Below, in pieces: positions 7,144 to 51,225 of a stretch of DNA of 64,000 nt. The position numbers and the translations under genes are program-made. The notes beneath the pieces were generated by a model. That model searched no databases, was not told where the DNA came from, and saw only the letters and a program-made list of their open reading frames with translations. Source of the DNA: Nitrosospira sp. 56-18 (GTDB lineage Bacteria > Pseudomonadota > Gammaproteobacteria > Burkholderiales > Nitrosomonadaceae); NCBI GenBank assembly GCA_001899235.1, contig MKVR01000014.1, positions 29,750 to 93,749 of the forward strand. Direction: 5' to 3'. Each line of letters opens with the position of its first letter. The first letter of the stretch is position 1.

Positions 7144-7290
7144 CAAGTGTTGTTAACAGATCCGGGGAGAGCTGGAGGAAACTCAGGCAAGATCAGCGAC
7201 GTGAAAATGGAAAGTGATCGCTTACGATCTTTTCAAGGCTGGCGAACAAAAATTGAAATGGTATTGCGCATCCACCGCAGAGATCGGTGG

Positions 7291-7326
7291 AAACAAAACA
7301 GCCGGGCGCGCCTTTTCGCGCTCGGC
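7291..7326 (-). terminator. Rho-independent terminator of the truncated haemoglobin gene
   Basis: Read on the minus strand, GCCGAGCGCG and CGCGCCCGGC form a 10-bp stem (one G-U pair) around AAAAGG, followed by TGTTTTGTTT. It is 25 nt past the haemoglobin stop codon. Confidence 0.7.
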
Positions 7327-7351
7327 TCGCCAGGAATAAAAAAGGGGAGAG

Positions 7352-7783
7352 CTACGGCTCGCGCAACCCGACAAGCTCTCTATCCGGGAACCGCTCCATT
7401 TGATACCTCTGCCACAAACGGCTCCCGATGTGGAAAGCCAGTGTATCGGCATTGAATTGCAGCCGTGGATTTTCCATTTCGCTGGTGGTCAGCCGAAACA
7501 ATTCCAACCACCGCTCGAACAATGCCGGGTTGAGCCCGGGTAGCGCAACATGTTTCGGCATGGGCATACCACGGAATCGGCTGGTCCCGCGCAATTTCAT
7601 TGACCAGAAATTGATCATTTGTACAAAATGAGCGTCCCAATCATCAACGTGCGCCTCGAAGATGGGCCCCAGTCCCGGGTCTTGCCGGGCTCTTGCGTAA
7701 AAAGTGTGAACCAGCCGTGCAATTTCTTCTTCGGTGCAGAGAGCGGGATCAGGTGCCGTAAACTCTGGTTGTGACATATCCAT
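7352..7783 (-). CDS. Group III truncated haemoglobin
   Basis: A 143-residue globin of the truncated 2/2 group III (Ctb-like) family, which bind haem and handle oxygen or NO in the cytoplasm. Family hallmarks seen are FYAR near residue 28, GPIFEAHV near 38-45, DWDAHF near 47-52, NFWS near 57-60, FRGMPMPKH near 69-77 and ERWLELF near 89-95; the His of PMPKH is the expected proximal haem ligand. It lies between sodB and rpoS, a setting that fits oxidative or nitrosative stress, though this is inference. It has its own terminator and is probably monocistronic. Confidence 0.9.
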   Translation of the reverse strand: MDMSQPEFTAPDPALCTEEEIARLVHTFYARARQDPGLGPIFEAHVDDWDAHFVQMINFWSMKLRGTSRFRGMPMPKHVALPGLNPALFERWLELFRLTTSEMENPRLQFNADTLAFHIGSRLWQRYQMERFPDRELVGLREP

Positions 7784-46947: not shown

Positions 46948-47826
46948 ATGGACAGATCACTGTTTCGACTGCTGCCTCTTGCAACGCTCGGCTCCGCTCT
47001 TTTCCTGGTCTCGCTGCCTGCGGCACACGCGGGTACTTTGGCGGAAAATCTGGCCACGATGGAGCAACAAAGCCCGATAGACATCACTTCGCAAGATACG
47101 AAGTTCCAGGCGCTGCCGCCGCTGCAGTTCAACCTGAGCTCGGATACCACGCTCAGCGTGATCAATAACGGCTCGCCTGATGTGTATGCAACCGCCGCCA
47201 GGGCAATCGTTCCCGCGGGTGCAGGATCGGTAACGCTGAACGGAGACACGTATAATCTGGCGCAGTTCCATTTTCACACGCCGGCCGAGAACCTGGAAAA
47301 CGGCCATACCTATCCCATGGAAATGCACCTTGTATTCAGCGATGCCAGCAATAATCTACTCGTGGTAGGCCGATGGGTGGACGCATCCGATGCGCATAAC
47401 CCCCCGCAGACGTCGCTGGACCCCATTTTTTCGGATCTGCCCAAAACCACGACAGAGACGCACGTCTTCAACCACTTCGATCTGAATACGCTCCTGCCAA
47501 GCAACCTGGAATCCTTCCGCTACGACGGCTCGCTGACAACCCCGCCGTTTTCGGAAGGGGTAAAATGGGTTGACCTGGCACAGCCGCTGTATATCTCCCA
47601 GGCCGACATCAATGCATATAGCTCCCTCTTTCCGAATGGCGATGCGCGGGAGATCCAAGATCTCAACGGGCGTATCGTGCTGACGGATGTGCCGGGATTT
47701 GCTTCCGCGGTTCCGGAGCCCGAAACCTATGCCATGCTGCTCGCCGGATTGGCCCTGATAGGCTTTGTAGCCGCCCGGAGAAGCAGGTCCAGGAGTTCGT
47801 TTGGATCGATGGGCTCCATTGCCTAG
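46948..47826 (+). CDS. Alpha-type carbonic anhydrase with PEP-CTERM sorting signal
   Basis: Secreted zinc enzyme hydrating CO2. A signal peptide ends near AAHAG (28); QSPIDI is at 41-46. Zinc ligands are His108 and His110 (QFHFH) and His127 (EMHLVF), with the SLTTPPFSEGVKW active-site strand near 191. The usual proton-shuttle NNGH is NNGS here (Ser76). Residues 256-285 (VPEPETYAM..., hydrophobic helix, RRSRSR) are a classic PEP-CTERM tail, implying recognition by an EpsH/XrtA-type exosortase. In an autotroph it could supply CO2 or bicarbonate at the envelope; that role is inferred. Confidence 0.93.
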   Translation: MDRSLFRLLPLATLGSALFLVSLPAAHAGTLAENLATMEQQSPIDITSQDTKFQALPPLQFNLSSDTTLSVINNGSPDVYATAARAIVPAGAGSVTLNGDTYNLAQFHFHTPAENLENGHTYPMEMHLVFSDASNNLLVVGRWVDASDAHNPPQTSLDPIFSDLPKTTTETHVFNHFDLNTLLPSNLESFRYDGSLTTPPFSEGVKWVDLAQPLYISQADINAYSSLFPNGDAREIQDLNGRIVLTDVPGFASAVPEPETYAMLLAGLALIGFVAARRSRSRSSFGSMGSIA

Positions 47827-48242
47827 CTTGGCTAGCTGGTCATAGAAATTATATTTATATAGTATATAGATAAGGCCGCTCGTGTACGCCCTATATGCGA
47901 AAGCTTCCTTCTTCCTGCATTCCGCCATCTCGACCTCACAGCTGAAGGCAGGAAGAAGTTTCCAGAGGTTGTTGCTGCGATCTTGACCTCAGCCGGTTCC
48001 GCGGGCCCTGCCCCGCCCGCGGAACCGGCTTTTTATTCCTGCTGTTCTTGTCGCCTGAAAAAGGCTTTCCGGGCGCTTCCCTATATTCCCTCCATGCTCC
48101 CGCAACGAAAACCAACGGCGGCCGCTCTCTGCCAAGGAAGTGCGGGACAAAAAGGTTTTTTGGGTCTCTCTGTCGGAATGGATAAAAAAATGGAGTAGTA
48201 TCATTTCCTTCATTCACCTTTTCCAACAGGAAACGTACCACG
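47827..48242. other. Intergenic region with inverted repeat and strong terminator
   Basis: No gene in 416 nt. CTTCTTCCTGC (47908-47918) and its exact complement (47948-47958) form an 11-bp stem around 29 nt. The strong terminator at 47991-48036 follows. The two together could be the 3' end of the carbonic anhydrase mRNA or a small RNA. Confidence 0.5.
47991..48036 (+). terminator. Strong Rho-independent terminator
   Basis: AGCCGGTTCCGCGGGC (47991-48006) and its exact complement (48015-48030) give a 16-bp stem with an 8-nt loop, followed by TTTTATT. It is 165 nt beyond the carbonic anhydrase stop and separates that gene from the small secreted protein pair. Confidence 0.85.
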
Positions 48243-48629
48243 ATGAAATTCACATTCAATAGCTTGACATCAATTGGCGCATTTTTTATCGCCCTGTTTT
48301 TTCTGGGGAACGGCATTGCGCACGCCCAGTCGAACTCAGGGCAGCACTCCGCTCCATGGGGAGATGCTGCAAAAAAACAAGGGGCGAGCCAGGGGAGCAA
48401 TCAGACAAATACAGCGCCCAATGCGGAAAACCCGCCGCCACCGGCGCAGACTGCCAGCTTCGAGCCCAGCGCGACCTCTGAGAGAGATCCCGGGTCATGC
48501 GCCTACTCCACCCCGGAGGACGAGACTTTTCTTTGCAAGATGATCCGGATCTTTTACGGCCCCGATACGCCACGCGGACCCAACCGCGATGTGGAGGAAA
48601 ATCTCTCCGCCGGAGGAGCCGGGGGCTGA
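48243..48629 (+). CDS. Small secreted protein with C-terminal FYGPDxPxGPxxDV...SAGGAGG motif (paralogue 1)
   Basis: Not a family I recognise. The 128-residue protein has a signal peptide (about 1-28, cleavage after AHA), a low-complexity Gln/Asn/Pro-rich middle (30-75), two cysteines (GSCAY and FLCKM) and the tail IRIFYGPDTPRGPNRDVEEN followed by LSAGGAGG. The same tail is found in the next gene, 15 nt downstream, which argues strongly that both are real. Conservation of the tail rather than the middle points to it as the functional or sorting element. Likely periplasmic, extracellular or surface-exposed. Confidence 0.8.
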   Translation: MKFTFNSLTSIGAFFIALFFLGNGIAHAQSNSGQHSAPWGDAAKKQGASQGSNQTNTAPNAENPPPPAQTASFEPSATSERDPGSCAYSTPEDETFLCKMIRIFYGPDTPRGPNRDVEENLSAGGAGG

Positions 48630-48644
48630 TATCGCGGCTTTGAT

Positions 48645-49043
48645 ATGAAAAAACCGCATGAAAGATTTGGCCTCAGGCAGATCCCTGTCAGCGCGGCGAG
48701 ATACGGTAGCATGCTCGCCGCCTTGGGCTGCCTGAGCCATGCAGGCATTGCAATGGCGGAAAAGGAGCCTGCCAAACCGATAACCGTGGAAACGGCGTCC
48801 CCGTTCAAGGGAGAAGACAAGGGGGAAAAAGCGGACAAGCCGGACCAGAATACTTTCCCGCCGCCAAACCCGGCATCTTCCGAAGCATACGATGTGCAAC
48901 CGGGCAACTCGTGGTGGGAGCATGCGGAGGGAGACAGCGTGCTTCGCAGATTCATAAAGCTTTTTTACGGACCAGACCGGCCGCCCGGACCGGATCCGGA
49001 TGTGGATACCAATATATCCGCAGGCGGCGCCGGAGGCGGATAG
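48645..49043 (+). CDS. Small secreted protein with C-terminal FYGPDxPxGPxxDV...SAGGAGG motif (paralogue 2)
   Basis: A 132-residue paralogue of the preceding gene. The N-terminus is basic with a hydrophobic segment (about 20-37) and probable cleavage after AMA. A Lys/Glu/Pro-rich middle leads to KLFYGPDRPPGPDPDVDTN and ISAGGAGGG at the end. It lacks the two cysteines of its neighbour. Spacing of 15 nt indicates a bicistronic transcript. Function unknown; the Gly-rich end recalls but does not match known sorting or precursor-peptide signals. Confidence 0.8.
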   Translation: MKKPHERFGLRQIPVSAARYGSMLAALGCLSHAGIAMAEKEPAKPITVETASPFKGEDKGEKADKPDQNTFPPPNPASSEAYDVQPGNSWWEHAEGDSVLRRFIKLFYGPDRPPGPDPDVDTNISAGGAGGG

Positions 49044-49587
49044 GCTCCCCGGCAGCCAGAATCCGGTGCGGTAATGATGAATGGCTGAAATCTGTTCATT
49101 GATGAACACTGCCGTTCTAACCCACCCGGCCCATTCCGGAATCAGGTATGGAAAAGTGGGCGCCATCTCTTCAAATTCTCAAAAAAGTTCCACGCGATCT
49201 CCTGCATGCACCATTTCAAACGTGTTTTCGGCGGCCTCCATTCCCGCGGGTTTTGTATCGCCATAACGCCCATTGCTGCCTTCGCGCAAATTCCTTGCCC
49301 CGGAAATAAATTCGCTGTCATAATTAGCTTCCTGGCCACCACTTTCAGGAGATCAAAAACCATTCTTTTATCATGGTTTGGGATAGACCCTGCGATTCCT
49401 GGGCAGCACCGCCAGATTAACCAAATCTTCACTTTCACTTGACATTTAGTTGACGTCTGTTGTGCTAACTTCAGTTACAATCAGAAAATGAAAAAATAAC
49501 GGAAACAGCATTGGGCAAAAGATTTCCGATATTCAAATAGAATAATCTTGACTTAATTTCAATCTTCAACGTGGGGGGAATCATTTA
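49044..49587. other. Intergenic region before the porin gene
   Basis: No intact gene in 544 nt. On the minus strand 49352-49182 there is a stop-to-stop frame of about 57 codons with protein-like composition but no plausible start. Promoter-like hexamers TTGACA (49439-49444), TTGACG (49450-49455) and TACAAT (49476-49481) precede the porin but are not ideally spaced. GGGGGGA just upstream of 49588 is the porin ribosome-binding site. Confidence 0.45.
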
Positions 49588-51225
49588 ATGAAACCTAGTC
49601 TTTCATTAATAGCTGCTGCTTGTTGCCTTGTTTCGACTTCCTTATATGCGCAGGACAAGCAAACCGCGGGAGGCGCGGATGCTTCATCGTCAAAGGGCTA
49701 TACCATAGACCTCTATGTCGATACCAAGACCAAGCAGATCTATGCAGAACCTGGAGAGGGGCGGGTACGCATGGGGTCTTTTGAAAAAGTATCGGATATG
49801 CCGAAAGCTCCCGCAAGCGCCGCTGGGGCTGTCCCGCCCGCTCCCACGAGCAGGGAGGGCGCGGTCGCCGCCACCGCAGCGGCAATTCCCGCGGGCACTG
49901 CCCCTGGTGCGCCAAAACCCGGTGGATTTGGATACTCGGATTGGGTGAAAGCAGACCCGTTCAAGCTGAACCTGAACGGCGATGGCAGCCAGTACATCAA
50001 ACTCGGCATGCTTAACCAGGTTCAGTTGGCATACGAGCAGAACAACCCAGGATCGATGATTCAGAACCAGCCAGTGACCGACACAACCGAAGTCAGCTTG
50101 CGCCGGACCCGTCTGGTATTGCAGGGGCAGCTTACCGATAGAGTGTACTTTTACACGCAATACGGGATCAATAATTTCAACTTCATTGCTCAGCAGAATG
50201 ACAACCGCCATATCGCGGCCATGCCCTACTTTCACGATGCCTTCACCGAGTTGCGCCTGACGCAGGGGCATCAGATGATTGCAGGCGGCGGCCTCTCGAT
50301 GGCTAATGGACTATCGCGCTTCACTTCTCCCAGCGTCAGCACCATCATGACCCTGGATGTTCCTGTCGGGGCGCAGTACGCCACGGAAAGAACCCAACTC
50401 TTCAATAGAAACCTGGGAATCTGGCTTCGCGGCCAGATCAGCAAGTTCCGCTACCGGATAGCCGCGCAGGATTCGTTCCCCGTTACAACCGACGGACTAG
50501 CACAACCCGCTATTTCTCCAACAGTTTCGGATTTTGCCCAGGTTGGCCATAAGAAACAATATGGCGGCATGTTCTACTGGAACTTCTGGGATACGGAACC
50601 CATAACCAATGACTACATGCAAGGAACCTACCTGGGCAAGAAGGACATACTGAATCTCGAAGCCGGCTTCATCACCGAGAAAAATGCGATGTGGACCGGC
50701 ACCAGTCCATCAACCGCCCAATATCACGACATGACCCACTGGTCGGTTGCCATGTTTCTGGACGCGGCGGTGGATAAGGTGAAGGAAACGGCGGTCTCCG
50801 CCTATATCGGTTACTTCGTTTATGATTATGGCCCGAATTATCTCCGGATGAACGGCAATGGCGCGAACACGGCCAATGGCCTTGGCGCAGGGGGAAGTTT
50901 CAATGGAGCAGGCAACACCTTCCCGATGTTCGGCACGGGGGAAGTGTGGTATGCCCAGTTCGGCTATCTGCTGCCCAAGGACCTGATCCCCGGGAATAAC
51001 GGCCAGCTACAGATCTACACCTCCCTGTTGAGCGCAAACTACAAGCGGCTTCACGACCAGATGAATGTCTTCAACGGCGGCGTGAACTGGTTGCTGAAGG
51101 GCCACAACAGCAAGATCACCTTCGACTACCAGAACAGGCCTATTTTCAACTTCGACCCGATGGGCGACATCGTCAAAACCTCCAGCAGGGGACGTTTCGT
51201 ACTCCAGTACCAAGTCGCCTTCTAG
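49588..51225 (+). CDS. Outer-membrane porin (OprP/O-like beta-barrel)
   Basis: Predicted channel protein of 545 residues. A signal peptide ends near LYAQ (22). An N-terminal region with VDTKTKQIYAEPGEGRVRMG (about 43-62) and an Ala/Pro-rich linker (75-112) precede the barrel, which starts near KLNLNGDGSQYIKLGMLNQVQ and shows alternating aromatic/polar strands up to the terminal Phe (FVLQYQVAF), the usual BAM recognition signal. Substrate specificity cannot be read from sequence. A strong terminator follows. Confidence 0.88.
   Translation: MKPSLSLIAAACCLVSTSLYAQDKQTAGGADASSSKGYTIDLYVDTKTKQIYAEPGEGRVRMGSFEKVSDMPKAPASAAGAVPPAPTSREGAVAATAAAIPAGTAPGAPKPGGFGYSDWVKADPFKLNLNGDGSQYIKLGMLNQVQLAYEQNNPGSMIQNQPVTDTTEVSLRRTRLVLQGQLTDRVYFYTQYGINNFNFIAQQNDNRHIAAMPYFHDAFTELRLTQGHQMIAGGGLSMANGLSRFTSPSVSTIMTLDVPVGAQYATERTQLFNRNLGIWLRGQISKFRYRIAAQDSFPVTTDGLAQPAISPTVSDFAQVGHKKQYGGMFYWNFWDTEPITNDYMQGTYLGKKDILNLEAGFITEKNAMWTGTSPSTAQYHDMTHWSVAMFLDAAVDKVKETAVSAYIGYFVYDYGPNYLRMNGNGANTANGLGAGGSFNGAGNTFPMFGTGEVWYAQFGYLLPKDLIPGNNGQLQIYTSLLSANYKRLHDQMNVFNGGVNWLLKGHNSKITFDYQNRPIFNFDPMGDIVKTSSRGRFVLQYQVAF

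Follow-up and report, generated by a model that had tools for sequence, protein, structure and literature searches.

In several bacterial sorting tags, i.e., PEP-CTERM, GlyGly-CTERM and LPXTG, a motif precedes a transmembrane helix and basic residues. In Corynebacterium, the small envelope proteins PorA and PorH are encoded by paired genes and themselves form a channel in the mycomembrane. To our knowledge, small proteins that control porins outside the enterobacteria are poorly known. According to PMC9907809, RcsF and the translocation domains of colicins thread porins, a disordered part of each being lodged inside an outer-membrane barrel or passing through its lumen; RcsF itself is an exported lipoprotein with a proline-rich disordered part, disulphides and a folded C-terminal core, and it signals to IgaA. 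Here we describe a tandem gene pair of Nitrosospira sp. 56-18 that resembles each of these systems in part and shares its fate with one neighbouring porin.

The pair lies in a stretch of 64,000 nucleotides of contig MKVR01000014.1 (hereafter the window). Both proteins end in a conserved C-terminal region, which we refer to as the tail. The features discussed below are:

46948..47826, + strand: gene for an alpha-carbonic anhydrase with a PEP-CTERM, upstream of the tail pair; a common neighbour
47991..48030, + strand: terminator-like hairpin with a stem of 16 pairs, which follows the carbonic anhydrase gene and sets it apart from the tail genes
48243..48629, + strand: tail protein 1 gene, 128 aa
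48492..48626, + strand: last 45 codons of gene 1, encoding an amphipathic helix and then a YGPDxPxGPNxDhDxNISAGGAGG-type tail (alignment A1, codon test, AlphaFold)
48645..49043, + strand: tail protein 2 gene, 132 aa; the tail is one residue longer, ...DVDTNISAGGAGGG
48906..49040, + strand: last 45 codons of gene 2, encoding the gene-2 version of the motif (alignment A1, codon test)
49429..49454, + strand: three tandem T(G/C)AC half-sites spaced at exactly 11 bases, located before the porin gene
49588..51225, + strand: gene for a porin-like outer-membrane protein, 545 aa, a distant OprO/OprP (Porin_O_P) relative

In line with the first-pass annotation, the two reading frames are adjacent (15 bases from the stop codon of gene 1 to the start of gene 2), their products look secreted, and they are flanked by a PEP-CTERM carbonic anhydrase upstream and a porin downstream. 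Tail protein 1 consists of a signal-peptide-like N-terminus, a variable low-complexity middle and a C-terminal helix followed by the tail, and tail protein 2 is built in the same way. By inspection, the signal-peptide-like starts end in ...GIAHAQ (gene 1) and ...GIAMAE (gene 2), and no lipobox cysteine was seen by eye at the end of either. The two tails read FYGPDTPRGPNRDVEENLSAGGAGG and FYGPDRPPGPDPDVDTNISAGGAGGG. When protein 2 was searched against its own genome it recovered protein 1 with an E-value of 3.0e-12; the likeness is therefore not due to chance, and the proposal of a shared C-terminal motif behind variable low-complexity middles was borne out. A pair of cysteines in tail protein 1 (GSC...FLCK) is kept in 18 of 18 gene-1 rows of alignment A1, and the cysteines of gene 2 vary among the aligned sequences.

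The family had not been recognised at first sight, and no described family emerged from the searches either. Pfam and NCBIfam gave no match above cut-off for either protein; NCBIfam gave none at all up to E 10, and the sole Pfam match up to that value, of protein 1 to Trypan_PARP, is a low-complexity match scoring 17 bits against a cut-off of 100. PorA and PorH resemble the tail proteins in being small envelope proteins encoded as pairs, yet they are themselves the channel, whereas the tail pair adjoins a full-size porin. Like RcsF, the tail proteins would be exported and have a disordered part; unlike RcsF, they show no lipobox by eye, their conserved part is the extreme C-terminus, and no folded core is predicted (protein 1). 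Among open-licence PMC texts, no paper naming the family came up, and the letters of the tail end occur in two unrelated papers. PMC5960693 mentions Q2Y9X6 and Q2Y9X8 among highly expressed uncharacterised proteins of N. multiformis; these could not be matched to the tail genes and are given no weight here.

To characterize the tail, we built an alignment (A1) of the C-terminal 45 residues of 38 proteins, which came from 20 genomes. Conservation begins about 12 residues N-terminal to FYGPD, within a segment predicted to form an amphipathic helix, and FYGPD itself belongs to the less conserved half of the tail (for example, gene 2 of the N. multiformis group has FFVAP-APSRPNPDVDTNISAGGAGGG). 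The end of the tail is near-invariant Gly/Ala, and its acidic residues are conserved in both of two distinct orthologous versions: gene 1 ends in ...NISAGGAGG and gene 2, one residue longer, in ...DVDTNISAGGA(G/A)GG. Counted from the conserved Asn, the C-terminus is 9 residues away in gene 1, 10 away in gene 2 and 9 away in the single gene of genome G017. The basic amphipathic segment that precedes the tail has a mean Eisenberg moment of 0.73 over the 38 sequences; this exceeds the moment of segments shuffled from the same residues by 1.0 to 2.6 standard deviations, a value inflated by picking the best 11-mer in a short range. AlphaFold, run on protein 1 (A4, 24 rows), places a helix at residues 96-105, where the blocks average a pLDDT of 76 and 71; every other block has a pLDDT of at most 61, and no folded core is predicted.

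We next consider selection on the last 15 codons, the protein middles not being alignable. Uncorrected Nei-Gojobori counts (excluding the single gene of G017) gave a pS of 0.71 and a pN of 0.10 for gene 1 (18 sequences), and a pS of 0.69 and a pN of 0.05 for gene 2 (19 sequences), i.e., these codons are under strong purifying selection. The C-terminus had been singled out as the conserved part of the proteins, which the alignment and the codon counts support, with the onset of conservation lying upstream of FYGPD. Within 18 genomes, the two paralogues differ by 0.58-1.15 per synonymous site (uncorrected), and synonymous sites of these codons are near saturation both among orthologues and between paralogues; thus, the likeness of the tails does not stem from recent gene conversion or a DNA repeat. 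An RNA element was likewise ruled out, Rfam being empty for positions 47600-49700 at the gathering score.

An initial search with protein 2 in 61 genomes (the window's own and 60 relatives) matched 20, all of the same genus. With a profile of the 38 tails in A1, the tail was found in 21 of the 23 genomes searched for the genus (Nitrosospira/Nitrosovibrio), broken in one of them (G001), and was absent from G016 and G018; the tail is hence not specific to this strain, there being matches in 20 other genomes of the genus, which have the tail in common and vary in their middles. Eighteen genomes carry two complete tandem genes, G002 has a whole gene 2 and a gene 1 end matched at a contig edge, and G017 has a single gene with the gene-2 motif and the length of gene 1. 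No genome of the 23 has more than two tail carriers, the surplus A1 matches in G009, G015 and G022 being short frames (that of G022 was judged so by its length and its match, both equal to those of G015).

A search of the family at E <= 0.1 gave matches in 41 of 125 genomes, comprising the 21 of the genus and 20 weak ones outside it (E 5.8e-4 to 0.08); none of the 10 weak matches inspected ends in the tail, these being either short frames or segments from inside proteins of ~500 aa. In samples of the order (399 genomes), class (369) and phylum (398), the tail was found at E <= 0.001 only in the window's own genome each time; these are even samples holding hardly any other genome of the genus, in which rare relatives could escape and the first-look candidates of larger genomes were scored in part only. 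One short peptide pattern, applied to 84,980 genomes, gave 94 stretches, and the 13 relatives among the matches listed all bear the name Nitrosospira or Nitrosovibrio. As far as sampled, therefore, the tail is confined to one genus, with no credible match outside it.

The porin that follows the pair is only distantly OprO/OprP-like. The window member has no Pfam match up to E 1, and among 20 porin orthologues three match Porin_O_P (PF07396), the best with an E of 6.6e-5. Residues 135-545 of the window porin match the ExtI porin model NF040900 with 65.9 bits, below its cut-off of 150, and an additional conserved segment at its N-terminus, IDLYVDTKTKQIY...GSFEKV, sets the protein apart from both models. 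An AlphaFold model of the porin (A2, 20 rows) had a mean pLDDT of 38.6, too low for a fold search, and PDB searches with its sequence and profile gave nothing useful. We also observed that a segment of ~60 residues (about 34-95, IDLYVDTKTKQIYAEPGEGRVRMGSFEKV and beyond) occurs in other proteins, mostly of 490-630 aa, across all four genera of the family.

The porin proved to be the recurring neighbour of the tails. It lies downstream on the same strand in 19 of the 20 loci with apparently intact tails (tblastn), its match starting 322-1186 bases after the last tail gene, and in the remaining genome (G014) it is found ~10 kb downstream. Clustering of neighbouring genes similarly placed it in 19 of 21 loci, including the fragment in G001; in L049 it is masked by an antisense frame, and in L047 (G014) none is nearby. 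In genomes G015 and G022, the tail-porin unit sits in a different neighbourhood, with the porin still adjacent. Close and near full-length porins occur in 20 of the 23 genomes of the genus (best match at least 62% identical in each): in all 20 with apparently intact tails, and intact in none of the other three. Among the 399 sampled genomes of the order, this porin was found at E <= 1e-30 in the window's own genome only. The tail pair and the porin thus form a unit, its genes usually adjacent, that at these thresholds was seen in no other genus.

The genomes without an intact porin are the very three without intact tails, i.e., G001, G016 and G018. At E <= 1e-10, G016 and G018 have no porin. 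G001 has suffered a deletion that joins the start of gene 2 to the final fifth of the porin; this remnant carries a frameshift as well, so that only a broken 3' porin fragment with a stop is left, and gene 1 has an in-frame stop of its own. A relative of the carbonic anhydrase is kept in all three genomes: in G018 it remains in order with pgm, gnd and zwf (named by eye), tails and porin being gone, and in G016 there is one match, 53% identical, among other genes. In a zwf tree, G018 groups with G005 and G009, and in a carbonic anhydrase tree with G000 (support 0.63), all of which have tails and porin. G001 stands apart from G018 in both trees, which indicates at least two independent losses; the tree of carbonic anhydrases unites it with G016 (0.95), and the losses in these two may be one shared event. 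Hitting the same three of 23 genomes by chance has a probability of 1 in 1771, a figure that assumes independence and ignores linkage and descent; since adjacent genes can be deleted in one event, the joint loss is weaker than it appears. The shared fate of the tail pair with one porin is nonetheless the strongest new fact to come out of this analysis, and the surface or envelope role suggested earlier is plausible because the porin recurs beside the tail genes and is lost with them.

With respect to the upstream neighbour, the hairpin that follows the carbonic anhydrase gene has by far the longest stem of the four terminator-like sites found in the window (2.9 expected). A second carbonic anhydrase lies just downstream of the porin in five loci (L036, L039, L040, L041 and L045), flanking the unit on both sides, and genomes G019 and G020 have two carbonic anhydrase genes upstream. 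In L043, L044, L047 and L052, a secreted-looking TPR-repeat protein of ~410 aa (Pfam on the L047 copy) is encoded between carbonic anhydrase and tails.

On these grounds, we propose that the tail pair are envelope proteins which, once exported, assist the OprO/OprP-like porin encoded beside them, a reading to which we assign a probability of roughly 40%; the linkage is observed, and the mechanism set out below is conjectural. A less likely alternative is that they are independent secreted or surface proteins that travel with the porin merely as neighbours, their tail being a self-assembly or metal-binding element. Adjacency alone could yield a joint deletion such as that in G018. However, gene 1 of G001 is interrupted by a separate stop, over and above the deletion that hit gene 2 and porin, in G015 and G022 the genes have stayed together although their surroundings differ, and in G014 tails and porin were both retained after separation. 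As for metal binding, acidic residues are conserved in both tail versions, and the pattern [DN]-x-D-x-[DE]-x-N-[IV] may resemble the start of an EF-hand-like loop, but the likeness to a calcium site is partial, there being no acidic residue at position 12 of the loop consensus.

Porins that have no tails can also be counted toward independence. Close paralogues of the porin, 58-63% identical (tblastn), occur in five genomes (loci L139-L143, at G000:C18, G007:C9, G011:C1, G014:C85 and G017:C19), with no credible tail gene near them. The second copy in L141 adjoins genes for an NMT1-type binding protein, a permease and an ATPase (Pfam), and similar genes were seen by eye in the other four; this suggests an anion or a sulfonate-like compound as the putative substrate of the porin. 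A HEAT-repeat protein and an FAD protein are also encoded alongside the second copies (Pfam on L141 only).

The same can be said of the array of half-sites upstream of the porin, which resembles a putative site for an OmpR/PhoB-type regulator. Runs of at least three half-sites with the 11-base period precede the porin in 16 of 20 loci, compared with 2 of 4000 shuffles that kept base composition only, and range from three half-sites in the window to eight in L037. No run of two or more was found in 17 upstream regions of gene 1 (L036 excluded) or upstream of the five second-copy porins. In the window's own genome, the three-site pattern has 3 matches compared with 2 for a backward control and is as such no rarer than chance would have it; the one array beyond the porin, at about 6769-6805 of L149 (- strand), precedes the gene for a membrane protein of 147 aa, and pst or pho genes were not seen beside it. 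What lends the array weight is that locus after locus has it in front of the porin, many of these loci being related, and control of the porin by PhoB remains a mere lead, given the near-equal control count and the lack of pst/pho genes at the other array. As the array lies upstream of the porin and is absent from the gene-1 upstream regions examined, tails and porin may not be co-regulated, and the porin may be controlled separately. L149 also encodes (7213-7629, - strand) another small protein that looks secreted; its middle is of low complexity, its C-terminus is rich in Gly and Ser, and by eye it lacks the tail motif.

The conserved C-terminus had originally been viewed as something that a partner recognises, such as a sorting, processing or export system, or as the active part. 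The resemblance to PEP-CTERM/exosortase tags lies in a short conserved C-terminal region on otherwise dissimilar exported proteins. In the tail, though, the stop codon directly follows (N)ISAGGAGG(G), leaving no transmembrane stretch or basic end, and no curated sorting-tag profile in NCBIfam or Pfam matched the tail proteins; moreover, sorting tags mark many proteins, whereas the tail is carried by at most two per genome in 23 genomes, which makes a general sorting, processing or export tag unlikely. Of the earlier interpretation, recognition of the tail by a partner is the best reading. A dedicated version of the idea, in which the C-terminus is a signal for a periplasmic tail-specific protease, transpeptidase or ligase and the mature product is cut or covalently attached, strikes us as improbable: the fixed distance from the Asn to the C-terminus and the near-invariant Gly/Ala end would fit an enzyme that reads a free C-terminus, but the paucity of carriers and a motif lacking a following transmembrane or basic segment speak against it, and none of the recurring neighbours, most clusters of which were named by eye, was conspicuous as a gene for a protease, transpeptidase or ligase.

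Least probable of all is that the two proteins are secreted peptides acting together as an antimicrobial or a signal by way of the cationic amphipathic helix and the Gly-rich tail, as might be read from tandem paralogues, a basic amphipathic helix and a GxxxG-like Gly-rich end, given that bacteriocins are patchy and diversifying whereas this pair is present in nearly the whole genus under strong purifying selection, that class IIb two-peptide bacteriocins have a double-glycine leader whereas these proteins have a signal-peptide-like start (by inspection) and no such leader, and that no exporter or immunity gene stood out by eye among the neighbours.

Returning to the reading of an accessory pair that serves the porin, we envisage that both tail proteins would be exported by Sec to the periplasm, where the proline/serine/glutamine-rich middle (an estimated 40-90 residues, roughly) would act as a flexible tether. 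The short basic amphipathic helix may rest against the porin itself or against the periplasmic side of the outer membrane, and the acidic, glycine-rich C-terminal tail may enter a binding site of the porin, at its periplasmic mouth or in its lumen. Once bound, the tail could gate the porin, fix it in place or aid its assembly. The two tail versions may occupy two non-equivalent sites of the porin, which would account for both paralogues having been kept. A more specific form of the proposal, that two small intrinsically disordered proteins, each with an invariant C-terminal plug, jointly occupy and gate an OprO/OprP-type anion porin and so represent a new kind of porin ligand, is in our estimation rather unlikely.

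The locus offers a minimal case provided by evolution, i.e., two short proteins, one channel and one genus, with a conserved stretch of about 25-30 residues that is small enough for synthesis. If the link to the porin holds, an orphan gene pair kept in 20 of the 23 genomes of the genus would gain a function, and soil ammonia oxidisers would have in it a means of regulating the entry of nutrients.
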